Source: Rhizophagus irregularis (lineage: Eukaryota > Glomeromycota > Glomeromycetes > Glomerales > Glomeraceae). From it: DNA of 64,000 nt. The notes beneath the pieces are model-generated. The model made no database searches and was not told the DNA's origin. It saw nothing but the letters and a program-made list of their open reading frames with translations. Both the position numbers and the translations under genes were made by a program. The DNA is taken from assembly GCF_026210795.1 (NCBI RefSeq), contig NC_089439.1:4898001-4962000 (forward strand). The letters are read 5' to 3'. Of this stretch, positions 9,004 through 63,860 are shown in pieces (the first letter of the stretch is position 1; each line of letters starts with the position of its first letter).

Positions 9004-12000
9004 ATGTCGAATAATAAAGTATTATGTATATGTTCCAAATGTAAAAAAAAAGGATCAGATAATATTGGTAAATATGTGCATCCTACTACCAAATGGAGAC
9101 ATATTAAAAATGCAAAAAAGAATTATAATTTTAGCGACAACGATGATGATAGCGACGATGACGATAGCGATAATGATGATAATAATAATAATAATAACGA
9201 TCATGACGACGATAATAACGATAACGATAATGATGATAATAATAACGACCACGACAAAGACCACGATGACGATAACGATCACGATGACGACCACGATAAT
9301 GATGGCGATAATGATGATAATAATAACGACTACGACGATAATAATCATGATGATAATAATGTAGAATATAAACAGTAAGTATTAAGGAGAATATTTCTGT
9401 TATTCGTTAACTAATAATGATTATTAAATGTTTTATATTATATTTTAATTGTAATGATGATAGGAGGAATGAATTTGATAATAGATCTTCAAGATCTCCT
9501 ACTCCCGTTCTCATGGTAATTGATGATGATTGCTATGATGACAATCAAGAACACCATGACAATCGTGACAATTCTGATGAAAAAACAGAATCATCAACTG
9601 CAACTGAATCTGAATCTTATGAAAGTTTATATGATTCTTTTGATGATAATAATACGTTTGAAGTATTACAAAAAGGACTATATAGTAGCGATAATGAATC
9701 ATCTGATGACGGTATTAATTTAACAGAAGGTAATATACGCAATATTTATTTATTTATTTAAAATTATTTATTATTAATGCAAATACATATTATTTGTAGG
9801 GTCTAATATTGTAGGGTCTAATATTAATAGTATTAATGATGAAGTTGCTAGAGGTTTACGTCTTCTTGAAGTAAAAACTCGACAAAATATTACTGATGCA
9901 GCCTTTAAAGAAATTGTTACTGCAGCTAGTGGTAATTTTACAAGTCAATATACACTAATAAAAACACTTAAAAATATAGTTCCTATTAAACCAATTTGGG
10001 TTGATATGTGCATAAATTCATGCTGCGCTTTTACTGGTAATTTGGAAACATTAAATAAATGTACCTATTGTAAAGCTGAACGTTATCAAGAAGGAGGACG
10101 ACCAAGAGCACAAGTAGCATATTTTTCAATTCAGAATCGATTTAAAATTCAATATCAAGATCCAACACGCGCAAAACAATTATGTTATCGTTCTGAATAT
10201 ATTACCAGAGAAGATAATGGTGCTATTGGCGATGTATTTGACGGCTCACAATATAAATATCTATCCCAAGAGGGATATTTTCAAAACGATCGTGATATTG
10301 CACTTTTAGGTTCTGTTGACGGTTATCAACTATTCAAACAAAAATGTGATGATTGTTGGATAGTTTTATTTATTAATGCTAATTTGCCACCCCATCAACG
10401 TGTAAAAAAAGAAAATTTACTTATTACTTCAATCATCCCGGGTCCTAAAGCTCCAAAAAATTTTAATTCTTTTATGAAACCAATAGTTGAAGAATTATGC
10501 TTATTAAATGGTAATTTTAATTATATACATTATGATAAAACTTAATGATAAAAAAAAATATATATTAAAAATAATTGTAAATTTGTAGATGGTGTTGAAT
10601 GCTATGATAGTGCTACGAATGAGAATTTCCTCCTAAAAGTTACGGTACTTTCCTGGTCTGGAGATACTCCCGGATTGTCAAAACTTGCTTGCTTAACTGG
10701 ACATAATTCATACATGGCATGTCGTTACTGTAATCTTCGAGGGATATATAACAATCAAATATATTATCCTACAACACCACCATCAATTGAAACATATAAA
10801 ACTTATAATCCATCAGATTTACCAAAAAGAACTCATAGAGATTATAAGACAAGAATTGAACAAATAACGACAATACCGCCATCAAGAACACACGATACAT
10901 TAATTTCTGATTTAGGTAAATAATAAATCTATTGCAACATAATTTTTTTTACTATAAAATTAATAATTATTATTTTGAAATAGGTGTTACAGGACGTAGT
11001 GTATTATTAGAAATAGAAACAACTCGATTTCCTACATGTTTTCCAATAGATATTATGCATTTGTTTTATGAAAACATCGCATTATATATGTTAAAACATT
11101 GGATGGGTTGTTTTTTTAAAGATTCTATTCTTAATGATCAGCCATATGTAATTAACAACAAACAATGGACTGAGATTGGGATTGAAATGGAAACTGTAAG
11201 AAAATCCATTCCAACTGATTTTGGTCGACCACCACGAAATATCTTACATCACCATAATGGTTACAAAGCAGAGGAGTGGGCTTCATGGATAACCTTATAT
11301 TCTTTACCTTTATTAAAAGATCGTTTGCCGGCAAAATATCTTAAAGGTTAGTCCTTTTTTGTTAAAGCTGTTCAGCTTTGTCAAAAACGAGTATTATCTT
11401 TACATGATCAAGAAGAAATAAGGAAATTATTATTGCTATTTTATCAACATTATGAACGGTATATATATTACAACATTTATTTTATTTATTTGAATCTTTA
11501 TTGTTTTTTTATTAAAATAATATTATTTTTAGTTATTATTATCAGTTTTTGGCTGCCCGACTAAGTGTAATGAAAGTATGCTTTCATTATATTTTACATG
11601 TTGCTGATAGCATTCAGGATACTGGACCATGTTGGTCAACATGGCAGTTTCCTATGGAACGTACTTGTGGAATGTTACAACCGCTAGCAAAATCACGTCT
11701 CCATCCATATAAAAATCTAACAAACAATGTATATTTGTTAGAATTATTTAATAATTTGTGTTATTTTAGAAAATTTTATGATCAGATTTTTCCTTCTATA
11801 CCTTGTAAAGAGTATAAAGAACACCTGGTTTATACAAATCAGAATTATGAAGAAGAATTTCAATGGCCTTCTAAAACATATACTCTTACATTCCAAGAAG
11901 TTAAAAAAATAAAAGATCATTTATCTGTAATAGATAATCGTGCATCAGGAATGCGATTAAATGTATGTATATTATTTTATCTTTAATTTTAAAGTTAAAT

Positions 12001-16659: not shown

Positions 16660-16896
16660 ATCATGTTATGTTCTCGAACATTTTTCTGATTGGGGTCGGA
16701 TAATAAAAGATTAATTAAAATATTCGATTGGGGTCGAATATTTTTCTTTTTCCGATTGGGGTCGGATATTAATCTTTTAAAAAATGTTCGATTACTATTT
16801 TTTTTTTGTCCGATCGATTGGGGTCGAATTAATTTTTGATTACTATTTTTTTTTGTCCGAGTCGGATTAATTTTTTTAAAAAACGTTCAATTGGGG
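16660..16896 (+). repeat. GATTGGGGTCG short repeat block
   Basis: Five to six copies of GATTGGGGTCG in A+T-rich spacers, several of them flanked as TTCGATTGGGGTCGAA. The CACTA element is inserted in the last copy, which resumes as GGGTCGAAC at 20243. Confidence 0.7.
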
Positions 16897-17334
16897 CACT
16901 AGTCGAAAAAGGACAATTCGGCCTAAATTTGACCAGGTCGAATATAGGTTGAATAATGGTCTAACCTGTGTCAAATTGAGGTCGAATTTTCGGGCACATT
17001 TAGGGTGCCAATCGTCCCAAATTCGGACTAATTATTCGACCATTATTTAGGTTTAAATTGACCAATATTCGACCTTAAAACTTTAAGCCGAATTATAGTC
17101 TAATAACAACCCATTTATTTATGAATTTATTTTGATTTTTTTTATCAAATTTATTAAATAAATGTATTTATTAATGCTTAAATACTTTATAATTATATTA
17201 TTATTATTGCATCTATCTAATTTACAAAAAATATTGCTAATTCAAATACAATTCTACAATTACATGATTCATGTATTCGTATATACGAATCTTTGATTGT
17301 TCTTTAGCAATACACCCAAACCTATAAAAAAAAA

Positions 17335-19765
17335 GAAGAACGGTTAGTAACCGTTTATAATATTAAAAAAAAATAAGAAAAAAAACCAAGATTCGTACTT
17401 ACTTACGAATCTTTGGTTTTTTCCATTCTTCGGAAGACACCCGAGACACCCGAGACCTAAAAAGAACGGTTATTAGTAACCGTTCATAATAATATTAAAA
17501 AAAAAAATCAAAAAAAATAAACCAAGATTCGTACTTACGAATCTTGGTTCCACTTTTCTGAAGATCAGAAGCCAATCCGAAGCCTAAAAAAAAAAGAAAG
17601 AACGGTTATTAGTAACCGTTCATTAATATTAAAAAAAAAAATACAAAAAAATAAACCAAGATTCGTACTTACGAATCTTGGTTTTTCCACACAAAAGCCC
17701 GCCCAAACCTATAAAAAAAGAAAGGAACGGTTAGTAAACCGTTCCAAAATGATAAAAAAAAAAAATATATAAAGATTCGTACTTACGAATCTTTATCTTT
17801 TGGTTTTCATTTTTCGGAAGCCCACCCGAACCTATTAAAAAAAAGAAAGAATGGTTAGTAAACCATTCGTAATAATAATAAATAAAAAAAAATTAAAGAT
17901 TCGTACTCGTACTTACGAATCTTTGGGTTTTCGTTCTTCGGAAGCCCACCCGATCCTAAAAAAAGAAAAGAACGGTTATTAGTAAACCGTTCATATATTA
18001 AAAAAAAACAAAAAAAAGAACCAAGATTCGTACTTACTTACGAATCTTGGTTTCTTGGTTTTCCGTTCTTCGGAAGCCCGCCAGATCCTAAAAAAAAGAA
18101 AAGAACGGTTAGAACCGTTCATATATTAAAAAAAAAACAAAAAAATTAAACCAAGATTCGTACTTACTTACGAATCTTGGTTTCTTGATTTTCCTTTCTT
18201 CAGAAGCCCGCCAGATCCTAAAAAATAGAAAAGAACGGTTATTAGTAACCGTTCGTAATATTTTTTAAAAAATAAAAAAAATCCAAGATTCTTACGAATC
18301 TTTGGAATTTTCCCGTTCTTCGGAACACGGAAGCCCACCCGAATCTATAAAAAATAAAAGAACGGTTATTAGTAACCGTTCGTAATATTTTTTTTAAAAA
18401 AAATAAAAAAAAATCCAAGATTCTTACGAATCTTGGAATTTTCCCGTTCTTCGGAACATCCGATCCTAAAAAAAAAGAAAAAGAATGGTTATTAATAACC
18501 GTTCATAATATTAAAAATAAACAAAAAAAATAACCAAGTTTCGTACGAACTTACGAAACTTGGTTTTTTTCATTTTTCGAAAGTCACCCGAGAGCCGAAC
18601 CTAAAAAAAAAATAAAAAAGAACGGTTAGTATTAACCGTTCATATTAAAAATATAAAAAAAAACTCCAAAGAATTCGTACTTATGAATCTTTGGGGTTTC
18701 TATACTTCGGAAGCCCACCCGAACGGCCGAACCTAAAAAAAAAGTAAAAAAAGAACGGTTAGTAACCGTTCATATTAAATTAAAAAATAAATAAAAATAA
18801 ACCAAGTTTCGTACTTACGAAACTTGGTTTTTCTATACTTCGGAAGCCCACCAGATCCTAAAAAAAAGAAAAGAACGGTTAGTAAACCGTTCATATATTA
18901 AAAAAAAACAAAAAAAAGTGAAACCAAGATTCGTAGTTACTTACGAATCTTGGTTTCACTTTTCCGAAGATCGGAAGCCCACCCGAAACCTAAAAAATAG
19001 AAAAAAATGGTTATTAGTAACCGTTCGTAATATTTTTTAAAAAAAGAAAAAAAATTAAACCAAGATTTGTACTTACTTACGAATCTTGGTTTCTTGGTTT
19101 TCCTTCTTCGGAAGCCCACCCGAAACCTAAAAAATAGAAAAGAACGGTTATTAGTAACCGTTTGTAATATTTTTTAAAAAAAGAAAAAAAAATTAAACCA
19201 AGATTCGTACTTACTTACGAATCTTGGTTTTCCATTCGTCGGAAGTCCACCCAAACCTATAAAAAAAGAAAGGAACGGTTAGTAAACCGTTCCATAATAA
19301 TAAAAAGAAAAAAAAATTTAAGATTCGTAATATAATACTTACGAATCTTAAAAAAGTACTCCTTTTTCCGTCCCCATTCACTTTCCCTTTCCCTTTTGTT
19401 TTACCCTTTCCTTTCATTTTCTCTTTCCCCTTCGTCTTACCCTTTCCCCTTCGTTTACCTTTTCCCCTTCGTCTTACCCTTTCCCCTTCGTTTACCTTTT
19501 CCCCTTCGTCTTACCCTTTCCCCTTCGTTTACCTTTTCCCCTTTGTCTTATCCTTTCCCCTTTGTCTTACCCTTTCCCCTTCGTCTTACCCTTTCCCTTC
19601 GTTTTACTCTTTCCTCTTCGTCTTACCCTTTTCCCTTCGTTTTACCCTTTCCCTTCGTTTTCCCGAAACCTATAAAAAAAAACAAGAACGGTTAGTAACC
19701 GTTCCATAATATTAAAAAGAACTACTAAGATTCTACTTATGAATCTTAGTTTTTTTATTATCACG
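17335..19765 (+). repeat. Array of about 17 two-hairpin units, period about 125 bp
   Basis: Each unit has palindrome A (GAACGGTTA, short loop, TAACCGTTC), an A-rich spacer, palindrome B (ACCAAGATTCGTA, short loop, TACGAATCTTGGT) and a link such as TTCGGAAGCCCACCCGA. Palindrome A occurs near 17340, 17465, 17601, 17728, 17853, 17970, 18105, 18234, 18360, 18485, 18622, 18755, 18872, 19008, 19144, 19276 and 19686. In several units both arms carry matching changes: GAATGG with CCATTC at 17849-17868, AAGTTTCG with CGAAACTT at 18532-18565 and at 18799-18830, and TTAAGATTCG with CGAATCTTAA at 19317-19352. So palindrome symmetry is kept while the sequence changes. No protein is encoded. Confidence 0.9.
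19360..19665 (+). repeat. Pyrimidine-rich minisatellite
   Basis: Tandem units of about 18-20 bp of the type CCCTTTCCCCTTCGTCTTA, strongly C+T on this strand. They separate the last palindrome unit from the rest of the array. The long frame through it is only a repeat translation. Confidence 0.85.
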
Positions 19766-20242
19766 AAGCTCATTTCGTCCGGCAATACCTGCAAGAAAAA
19801 GAAAAAAAAGAAACGTTAAAACATTTCTAAAGTAAAAAAAACCGGTTCTAAAGTAAAAAAAATGACTTCCCTTCCCATTTACCTTATTATCCAAAGTCCG
19901 GTGCGTGGTTTCGACCAGTATTCCCATAGAATTACTACGAAAAGGGAAAGGGCCACATTAAAATTTTTAAAAAGAAAATAAAATAATTTTTTTTTGTTTT
20001 TTTCCGCGCCTATAGAGCCAAAGGACGAGGAAAAGAAGGAATAAAAGTTTAAAAAAGAATGCATAAGATTCTTTTTTAAACTTTTGATACGCGTAATGTG
20101 TGACGTGGCTATTCAACCAGCATGGTTGGTTATTCGACCAATGTCTAATCGTAGATCATTGCTAATTAAGGTCGAATTTTTTAATTTTAGTCAAATATAG
20201 GCCGAATTTTACTAAGGCCGAATATTCCTTTTTCAACTAGTG

Positions 20243-21490
20243 GGGTCGAACCAATATAATAAAAAAAAATTTTTTTATAAAATTATATATTTATTTTCAT
20301 ATATATTATTTTTAATATTTTTTATTTATTTTTAATATTTTTTATTTATTAATATTATTAATTCGCAATTCGTAAAAAAAGTAAACATGAAAAAATTTAC
20401 ATTACATTTATATAATGATCGGTAGGAATAGTAGTGATAATAAAATGCGTTAATATTCGTTAATACCAATAATTAAATGCGTTAATACTAAGAATCTCTA
20501 ATCGTTTTAGATCTAAACATGAATAACGACGATACTTGATGTAAAACTCGTTTCTATTAGTTAGTAAATAGTATGTATATGAGAGGTAACAGCAATCCAA
20601 AAGGCGCGTTACTTTATAAACTGGTAAACTTTATAGAATAAAATAACAGCTAAAGGAAACGAAAATAATGAGATATTACTAAGGTATACAAGGTATAGGT
20701 ATCATGTATCATTCAGCGATATTAAAACAGCACCAAGTTATATATGATAAGTTTATACGAAGTTTATATCAACGACGAAGTTTAATTTTCTAGATCTTTT
20801 ATTAAAAATTGGATTATTGGAATAATAATGAATTTCAAAGTATTTTTCTATTTATTATTTTATTTAAGAATTTTTTTTATAATAAAACTTGCTTAGTAAT
20901 ACAGTATATAATAAAATCAATAAAATCAATAAAATAAGTTTCATATTGCATAAAAAATTTTTTTATTTAATTAAATTTTTTTATTTAATTAATTATATTA
21001 ATATATTTATTATAAAAGATTATTAAGAAAAGGTAAAAAAATTAAGTAAATTTAGAATGTGACGAAGGTGGATAAGGAAATAACGCGAGCGTGATGGTAG
21101 TTGCAGATGGTATGTGTATATGGTGGCGGCGGCGGTTATTGTGGTGGAGGAGGAAGTAATTGTAGTAAAGGAAGTGATTGAAAAAGTAATTATAGAGACG
21201 GAAAAGGTGATCGTGATGAAGCGATTATTGTGATGTTTGCAGATATTTTCGGTTTTACTATAATATAAAAACTTGATACACGATTATAATATGGTTGAAT
21301 TACGGTTAAATGGGTTAAATGATATTAAATGTATATTATAGAAACGCGGTTCTGTTATAATAAAATAACTTGATCGCTAATATTATTATAAATTATAAGT
21401 TAATTTAAAATAAATACATTGTAGGTAAACAGTCATATATATTACTTTTTAAATACATTCACAATTCACAATTAAAGTAAAATGATCTCC
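20243..21490. other. Gene-free DNA inside the candidate element
   Basis: A+T-rich. At 21090-21200 there is a GGTGG-rich patch with many GTGATN repeats but no sustained frame. From 21490 to 21779 the DNA holds the subterminal GCACAAT/CGCACAATTTTT motifs of the right end. Confidence 0.4.
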
Positions 21491-61639: not shown

Positions 61640-61895
61640 AAATTGTTGCATCATTCAATATTTGCATAATTTCATTTTTTTGTTGATCATTAAAATTTCA
61701 TAAAATATTGCAAAAAAATAAAAAAATTGTAAAAAAAACATTTCAGTGTTTTTTCATATAATATTATTAAAAAAAATGCCAAAAACTTTTTTTTTTGCAT
61801 TACTATTAAGAAAAAAACGTTTTGGCATTTTTCCATATAAAATTATAAAAAAAATAACGCAAAAACGTTTTTTCTTCATTTTTTATTTTTTTAAC
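61640..61895 (+). repeat. A+T-rich inverted motifs before the satellite
   Basis: Repeats of AAAAATGCCAAAAAC and its inverse AAAACGTTTTGGCATTTTT separated by TTCATATAATATTATTAAA. They look like an older relative of the following satellite. Confidence 0.5.
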
Positions 61896-63860
61896 AAAAA
61901 ATGTCAAGACTGACGTTTTTAATTAAAAAAACCAATATTTTTTTGATTTTTAATCACAAAAATGTCAAAGTCTGACGTTTTTAATTAAAAAAAATCATTT
62001 TTTTTTGATTTTTTAATAACAAAAACGTCAAGTCTGACGTTTTTAATTTAAAAAAAACCAATATTTTTTTGATTTTTATTTTTTAATCACAAAAATGTCA
62101 AGTCTGACATTTTTAATCAAAAAAATCATTTTTTTTGATTTTTTAATTACAATAACGTCAAGTCTAACGTTTTTAATCAAAAAAATCATTTTTTTTGATT
62201 TTTTAATTACAAAAACATCAAGTCTGACATTTTTAATCAACAAAATCATTTTTTTGATTTTTTAATTACAAAAACGTCAAGTCTGACGTTTTTAATTAAA
62301 AAAAACAATATTTTTTTGATTTTTAATTACAAAATGCCAAGTCTGACATTTTTAATTAAAAAATCAATATTTTTTTTGATTTTTAATCACAAAAACATCA
62401 AGTCTAACATTTTTAATTAAAAAAAACCAATATTTTTTTTGATTTTTAATCACAAAAACGTCAAGTCTGACGTTTTTAATTAAAAAAATCATTTTTTTGA
62501 TTTTTTAATTACAAAAACGTCAAGTCTGACGTTTTTAACTAAAAAAATCAATTTTTTTGATTTTTAATTACAAAATTGTCAAATCTAATGTAAAAAATGA
62601 TTTTTTGAATCATAAAAATGTCATGTCTGACGTTTTTAACTAAAAAAATCATTTTTTTTTTGATTTTTTAATTAAAAAACGTCAAGTCTGACGTTTTTTA
62701 ACTAAAAAAGTCATTTTTTTGATTTTTTAATTACAAAAACGTCAAGTCTGACGTTTTTTAACTAAAAAAGTCATTTTTTTGATTTTTTTAATTACAAAAA
62801 CGTCAAGCCTGACGTTTTTAACTAAAAAAGTCATTTTTTTGATTTTTTAATTACAAAAACGTCAAGCCTGACGTTTTTAATTAAAAAAATCATTTTTCTT
62901 ATTTTTAATCACAAAAATGTCATGTCTGACGTTTTTTGACTAAAAAAGTCATTTTTTTTTGATTTTTTAATTACAAAAATGTCAAGTCTGACGTTTTTTA
63001 ACTGAAAATGTCATTTTTTTTGATTTTTTAATTACAAAAACGTCAAGTCTGACGTTTTTTAACTGAAAATATCATTTTTTTTGATTTTTTAATTACAAAA
63101 ACCTCAAGTCTGACGTTTTTTAACTGAAAAAGTCATTTTTTTGATTTTTTAATTACAAAAACGTCAAGCCTGACATTTTTTAACTAAAAAAGTTATTTTT
63201 TTGATTTTTTAATTACAAAAACGTCAAGCCTGACGTTTTTTAACTAAAAAAGTCATTTTTTTGATTTTTTAATTACAAAAACGTCAAGCCTGACATTTTT
63301 TAACTAAAAAAGTCATTTTTTTGATTTTTTAATTACAAAAACGTCAAGCCTGACGTTTTTCAACTAAAAAAGTCATTTTTTTTTGATTTTTTAATTACAA
63401 AAACGTCAAGCCTGACGTTTTTCAACTAAAAAAGTCATTTTTTTTGATTTTTTAATTACAAAAACGTCAAGCCTGATGTTTTTCAACTAAAAAAGTCATT
63501 TTTTCGATTTTTAATCACAAAAATGTAATGTCTGACGTTTTTAACTAAAAAAATCATTTTTTTTGATTTTTAATCACAAAAATGTCATGTCTGACGTTTT
63601 TAACTAAAAAAAACATTTTTTTGATTTTTTAATTACAAAAACGTCAAGTCTGACATTTTTAATTAATAAAATCATTTTTTTTTTGATTTTTTAATTACAA
63701 AAATGCCAAGTCTTACGTTTTTAACCAAAAAAATCAATTTTTTTGATTTTTAATCAAATCTAACGTAAAAAATGATTTTTTAATCATAAAAACGTCAAGT
63801 CTGACGTTTTTAATAAAAAAATCAATTTTCTTTATATTTAATTATAAAAATGTTTGATGA
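61896..63860 (+). repeat. Satellite, about 34 monomers of about 57 bp
   Basis: The monomer is TTTTTGATTTTTTAATTACA, then AAAACGTCAAGTCTGACGTTTT, then TAACTAAAAAAGTCA. Each monomer contains the hairpin ACGTCA-AGTC-TGACGT. Sub-types are ordered: AAGTCTGACG on the left, AAGCCTGACG mainly 62810-63475, and CATGTCTGACG scattered, as expected from local unequal exchange. No protein frame. Confidence 0.92.

Follow-up and report, generated by a model that had tools for sequence, protein, structure and literature searches.

The closest described systems are plant CACTA transposons, in which subterminal repeats are bound by an element-encoded protein such as TNPA (PMC2613891). The soybean element Tgmt* has a 3-bp target duplication and 28 subterminal repeats able to pair into 14 stem-loops (PMC2613891); for TgmR*, the more methylated element is described as the stable one (PMC4219821). 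Fungal EnSpm families have 5'-CAC..GTG-3' ends and 3-bp target duplications (PMC12730594). For Rhizophagus irregularis, there are published reports of small RNAs and of DNA methylation at transposons (PMC8647823), as well as a curated transposon library (PMC11075540); quasi-palindrome mutation has been described in yeast (PMC3820800). In the literature searched, no work joined transposon subterminal repeats, stem-loops, and compensatory change.

The window, that is, the whole 64,000-nucleotide stretch of R. irregularis DNA that was analysed, holds an element with the ends CACTAG..CTAGTG and CACTA-type terminal inverted repeats (Table 1). In other genomic copies the borders of homology coincide with the element ends, to within one or two bases in most rows listed. 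Forty-one stretches were examined for target duplications, and a regular expression located both ends in 13; the 3-bp flanks are identical in 12 of these 13 (in L005 the match uses the second of two 5' ends), L008 being off by one base, and in L011, L014, and L016 the 3-bp flanks also match when read off the element ends. The flanks in the window fit insertion into a TTGGGGTCGAA sequence, which is present twice nearby, at 16728 and 16818. The first-pass annotation had placed its palindromes inside a CACTA element, and the terminal inverted repeats, the shared homology borders, and the 3-bp target duplications bear this out. Insertion beside or into other CACTA elements is hinted at as well.

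Table 1 Features of the element and of its palindrome array; positions are those of the window
Feature	Position	Strand	Basis
Non-autonomous CACTA-type element, 3,346 bp	16897..20242	+	terminal inverted repeats at both ends; homology borders
5' terminal inverted repeat CACTAGTCGAAAAAGG	16897..16912	+	
3' terminal inverted repeat CACTAGTTGAAAAAGG (minus-strand reading)	20227..20242	-	
Target site duplication GGG, left copy	16894..16896	.	flanking letters
Target site duplication GGG, right copy	20243..20245	.	flanking letters
Palindrome array: 17338-19360, 16 units of ~130 bp in tandem; 19686-19757, a separate unit	17338..19757	+	
Tandem repeat rich in pyrimidines, separating the last A/B unit from the tandem units	19371..19661	+	
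Palindrome A, typical copy GAACGGTTA-TTAG-TAACCGTTC	17464..17485	.	
Palindrome B, typical copy AACCAAGATTCGTA-CT-TACGAATCTTGGTT	17520..17549	.	
Palindrome A variant GAATGGTT/AACCATTC, largely inherited two-arm change	17849..17868	.	
Palindrome B variant AAGTTTC/GAAACTT (position 6, A-T to T-A)	18532..18565	.	
Palindrome B variant AAGTTTC/GAAACTT, second unit	18799..18830	.	
Palindrome B variant TTTAAGATTCGTAA/TTACGAATCTTAAA	19317..19352	.	
Palindrome B with 22-bp perfect arms reaching into the spacer; candidate arm-to-arm copying event	18914..18963	.	

Each unit of about 130 bp carries palindrome A and palindrome B (CCAAGATTCGTA/TACGAATCTTGG). In 17335-19765 there are 30 perfect inverted repeats (arms of at least 8, at least 3 G/C, loop of at most 16), whereas 60 dinucleotide-shuffled versions of this stretch have 0.42 on average and never more than 2. 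Across stretches the units are regularly yet inexactly spaced: 129 +/- 9 bp from A to A (486 distances under 220), 54 +/- 6 from A to B (548 distances), and 75 +/- 7 from B to A (489 distances). The array, its coordinates, and the two palindromes in each of about 17 units are as first described, and so are the four named variant places (17849-17868, 18532, 18799, 19317). The array starts 441 bp inside the left element end and stops 485 bp inside the right end. We regard it as probably the subterminal-type repeat region of a non-autonomous CACTA transposon, although it also occupies the middle of the element and not the ends alone, a point against that reading. Elsewhere in the window, a second tandem array (61879-63751; 60-bp unit, about 30 copies by TRF) has a unit palindrome AAAAACGTC...GACGTTTTT, and an open frame at 33936-34505 matches cytochrome P450.

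The search for an autonomous partner gave at least 155 Transposase_21 matches (the best 150 of 393 candidates were scored), and comparison by eye with the listed element ends put none of the matches listed between paired ends. Five long copies were examined (C13, C12, and C29 with both ends listed; C10 and C6 presumed from a 5' end and the array). All 47 of their 47 frames were scanned, 18 of at least 100 aa (L035-L036) and 29 of at least 150 aa (L041-L047); L039 and L040 have no frames of at least 150 aa, and L037, L038, and the short copies L001-L034 lie outside the scan. No tnp2 transposase turned up in the 47 frames, a point against the subterminal-repeat reading, and none of the long copies is claimed as the autonomous partner; what the frames gave was retroelement domains, an F-box match, a hAT-like fragment, or nothing notable. 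A frame of 1,081 aa in the C29 copy is a repeated gene of the genome with no Pfam family above cut-off, and its motifs look like those of a type-B DNA polymerase; it was set aside. In the window itself an open frame matching Transposase_21 (tnp2) lies at 9778-10545, upstream of and outside the element.

In the genome (146.7 Mb, 32 contigs) at least 38 array loci, the window included, were counted by eye among the best 40 of 458 candidates scored. Exact A palindromes number 539 genome-wide, against 0 for a reversed-pattern control. A single stretch holds from 3 to 26 A palindromes, partial copies being among the stretches. All 595 matches to A were kept as hairpins; scrambled-motif controls gave 13-130 matches at the same threshold and 1 each with one mismatch fewer, at which 569 A hairpins remain. 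For B, 911 loose matches were reduced to 559 hairpins by requiring no more than 5 mismatches and a place 20-120 bases downstream from an A hairpin. Palindrome B was modelled with 9-base arms, a model with 10-base arms misfitting the short-loop units. The unit alignment used for the trees contained 524 distinct units of 556.

The first-pass annotation had held that paired changes keep the arms complementary, and had named RNAalifold and covariation above phylogenetic background as the check. On the 17 units of the window RNAalifold yields a consensus structure of 18 pairs, 5 of which have at least one matched two-sided change (1 in A, 4 in B), yet the covariation term is only -1.23 of -21.65 kcal/mol, and in the all-pairs test against a tree-based null 0 of 1891 column pairs reach E<0.05, so that covariation is not helix-wide. 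The consensus structure agrees with a selected folded RNA, a rod of hairpins transcribed from the array and serving, for example, as a small-RNA source; the small covariation term and the absence of significant pairs speak against it. The same null result agrees with the view that the paired changes are nothing but a few ancestral variants inherited by duplicated units with uncoupled arms. Partner pairs nevertheless rank high in the all-pairs test, B6 being second and B2 fourth.

Pair by pair, 3 of 19 partner pairs fall at p<=0.01 against a pair-specific null, as do 2 of 113 slid pairs; at p<=0.05 the counts are 5 of 19 and 12 of 113. In 1000 simulations on each of the two trees, B2 stands at 1/1001 (unit tree) and 2/1001 (spacer tree) and B6 at 1/1001 on both, and these two pairs tell against pure inheritance. 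A4 (13/1001 and 5/1001, in the same order) and B3 (23/1001 and 8/1001) exceed the phylogenetic null more weakly; B1 (125/1001 and 104/1001), A5 (167/1001 and 180/1001), B9 (869/1001 and 841/1001), and A1 (886/1001 and 870/1001) do not stand out. One of the three low pairs is not partner-specific: B-1 (6/1001 and 1/1001) was set aside as a dyad signal, the non-partner control -1/-2 being equally strong (2/1001 and 1/1001), while the other five non-partner controls are unremarkable.

Matched changes are a minority everywhere. Single, matched, and other two-arm changes number 242, 11, and 1 in A and 230, 11, and 5 in B on the unit tree, and 258, 22, and 3 in A and 247, 19, and 6 in B on the spacer tree. 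Matched two-transversion changes in B number 5 (unit tree) and 12 (spacer tree); other two-arm changes in B with a transversion number 5 and 4 at partner sites, and 1-4 and 1-7 at slid sites.

Arm re-pairing bears on the same question. Hairpins were grouped by context and the majority arms of each group were shuffled among types in 5000 shuffles; the types are related, so that re-pairing speaks of coupling somewhere in their history and not of a number of events. For B, 190 of 207 core cells pair in 23 types (groups of at least 3) against 170.9 +/- 3.3 when re-paired, and 453 of 531 cells in the 59 types of all groups against 413.0, a fit reached by 0/5000 shuffles in either case. For A, 94 of 96 cells pair in 12 types against 92.2 (467/5000), and 448 of 552 in the 69 types of all groups against 434.1 (16/5000), so that A shows some arm coupling too when all groups are taken. 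In B, and in A over all groups, re-paired arms thus fit worse than the arms that belong together, which tells against uncoupled inheritance. Pure inheritance is disfavoured for B2 and B6, where coupling is best supported, and as an account of all paired changes we think it doubtful. Paired changes are commoner than duplication of ancestral variants gives at B2 and B6, may or may not be so at A4, A5, and B3, and are no commoner than that at the remaining pairs.

For recent changes, each hairpin was paired with its nearest relative by 130 bases of context per side, the stem excluded and hairpins with less than 100 bases of context omitted, which gave 287 sister pairs for A and 273 for B; these are not fully independent, as both members may come from one element. 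At a context identity of at least 0.95, stem differences are 76 one-arm, 4 matched, and 1 unmatched two-arm in A (146 pairs) and 46, 2, and 1 in B (143 pairs), or 122, 6, and 2 over both palindromes. At 0.85-0.95 they are 87, 10, and 2 in A (99 pairs) and 82, 2, and 2 in B (89 pairs), and at 0.70-0.85, 63, 5, and 6 in A (38 pairs) and 51, 7, and 5 in B (39 pairs); matched changes rise once context identity falls below 0.85. The first-pass annotation had reasoned that drift of a plain tandem repeat should break one arm at a time, and most recent changes do exactly so. Its rule of paired changes holds at B2 and B6 beyond the tree-based null, but one-arm changes outnumber matched ones among close relatives as well as on the unit tree.

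Stem changes are mostly C>T or G>A, with A positions 4 and 5 and B position 9 as the commonest sites. At identities of at least 0.85, matched lineages number 15 in A against 5.3 expected, and non-partner pairs 19 against 13.6; in B the corresponding figures are 4 against 2.7 and 11 against 6.1. This excess at non-partner pairs suggests that copies decay unevenly. A5 alone has 11 matched lineages against 3.2 expected, which uncoupled inheritance leaves unaccounted for; this commonest recent matched change does not stand out in the tree test, however, a point in favour of inheritance, and A5 was set aside as a dyad signal.

At CpG sites, difference rates are 5.4% (stem A), 4.4% (stem B), and 6.75% (spacer) at an identity of at least 0.95, and 11.5%, 13.5%, and 18.7% at 0.85-0.95; at other G/C sites they are 2.5%, 2.3%, and 2.6%, and 5.4%, 6.5%, and 8.1%, respectively, the spacer rate being computed from the 45 bases downstream of B only. 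CpG-site differences in stems thus amount to 61-80% of the spacer rate. Stems vary somewhat less than the spacer, as a folded RNA would lead one to expect, but they look conserved partly because hairpins were chosen by likeness to the motif. Inserted copies mostly drift, with some constraint in place being possible.

In RNA of the + strand, a C>T change in a C-G pair leaves G-U, and a G>A change leaves A-C. Over all stem changes, C>T and G>A number 111 and 68 in A and 46 and 67 in B. Where the two arms share their local sequence, the ratio is 74:53 in A (A4 and A5; binomial p=0.08) and 15:13 at B9, a site whose same-context status is broken by the short-loop units; in the spacer, CpG sites show 81 C>T and 113 G>A changes. 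These wobble counts lean weakly to G-U in A, which together with strong folding of the first 1,300 array bases on either strand (taken without a shuffle control) would suit a folded RNA. The counts in B run the other way, partly since short-loop units lack a CpG in the left arm but have one in the right. Right-arm changes (C>T and G>A, all stretches) exceed left-arm changes by 107:72 in A and 72:41 in B, an excess that strand-specific pairing leaves unexplained and that in B is due in part to local sequence. The first-pass suggestion of selection for a folded RNA finds no helix-wide covariation, the strand counts decide neither way, and we consider such an RNA very unlikely.

Of the named variants, GAATGG/CCATTC has T-A at position 4, as have 74 of 595 A hairpins. 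It is largely inherited, since it predominates in a single context group of 67 hairpins, as inheritance from an ancestral variant would predict. The B unit at 18914-18963 differs in that its 22-bp arms run into the spacer and are found in the window copy and L008 alone; read by eye, it is like unit 17970 in its left flank and like unit 17520 in its right, and an extra TGA on the left brings the flanks into match. These arms fit quasi-palindrome mutation, as a rare event. A third small dyad occurs in two units, TTCTGAAGATCAGAA and TTCCGAAGATCGGAA (17555-17570 and 18961-18976), with a matched T/C and A/G difference.

Quasi-palindrome correction, in which a folded-back arm templates the other during DNA synthesis, would keep B matched without any selected function. 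The matched two-transversion changes in B, the low values of B2 and B6 on both trees, the 22-bp arms, and the precedent of this mutation type in yeast (PMC3820800) are consistent with it. Against it, among 247 perfect B cores there are only 3 whose arms run past the 9-bp core by more than 4 bp, and two of the 3 are the one event shared by 18914-18963 and L008; one-arm changes also persist in close relatives. As a general explanation of the matched B arms it appears unlikely. Template switching, proposed at first pass as one source of the paired changes, has in this way gained one good candidate, arm extensions of its kind being otherwise rare.

One-arm drift dominates, and a small coupled remainder is clearest in palindrome B. 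Under the subterminal-repeat reading, which we prefer, the A and B palindromes would be paired half-sites for an element-encoded DNA-binding protein supplied in trans, the role of TNPA in En/Spm, and a transposase bound in a regular lattice, as first suggested, is plausible by analogy. Unit number differs between copies and may shift by unequal exchange. In mobile lineages the palindromes would be retained; copies once inserted would drift, and their CpG sites would disappear from single arms, probably via deamination of 5-methylcytosine. The few matched B changes may be of ancestral origin, owed either to rare copying between arms or to selection that favoured the dyad, and may then have been multiplied by duplication of units and elements. 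The matched changes at B2 and B6 are not as binding to a fixed motif predicts, which counts against the protein-site reading; for B, one arm may on rare occasions have been copied onto the other, or mobile lineages may be under selection for the dyad. A stronger form, in which active lineages maintain the B dyad rather than its exact letters through fold-back DNA synthesis that copies mutations from arm to arm, is put forward tentatively and seems improbable to us; if true, it would make the array a natural record of quasi-palindrome correction in hundreds of hairpins of one genome. Hundreds of related hairpins in any case allow arm-to-arm copying to be measured against independent drift.

Compared with known systems, quasi-palindrome mutation in yeast matches the arms of an imperfect palindrome in one step (PMC3820800), whereas arm matching is here read from fixed differences and not watched as mutations. 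Plavaka elements end in TGT..ACA or CATCA..TGATG (PMC12730594), which the CACTAG..CTAGTG ends of the present element do not resemble; fungal EnSpm elements share with it the CAC..GTG ends and the 3-bp target duplications (PMC12730594). Maize En/Spm likewise has CACTA ends and repeated motifs inside its ends, but its motif is of 12 bp and is known to be bound by TNPA (PMC2613891), while for the present array we infer binding. Most similar are soybean Tgmt*, Tgm1, and TgmR*, with CACTA ends, a 3-bp target duplication, and many subterminal repeats capable of forming stem-loops (PMC2613891, PMC4219821), 12 of the stem-loops of Tgmt* lying on the right and 2 on the left (PMC2613891). Tgm elements use a single 17-bp motif, direct and inverted, within 159-732 bp of the ends (PMC2613891, PMC4219821); the present element, from a host outside the plants, has two palindromes, unrelated to each other and alternating over 2.4 kb in units of about 130 bp. 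The CACTA repeat arrays able to form stem-loops, known from plants, thus have a counterpart in the genome of this mycorrhizal fungus, with two alternating palindromes per unit.
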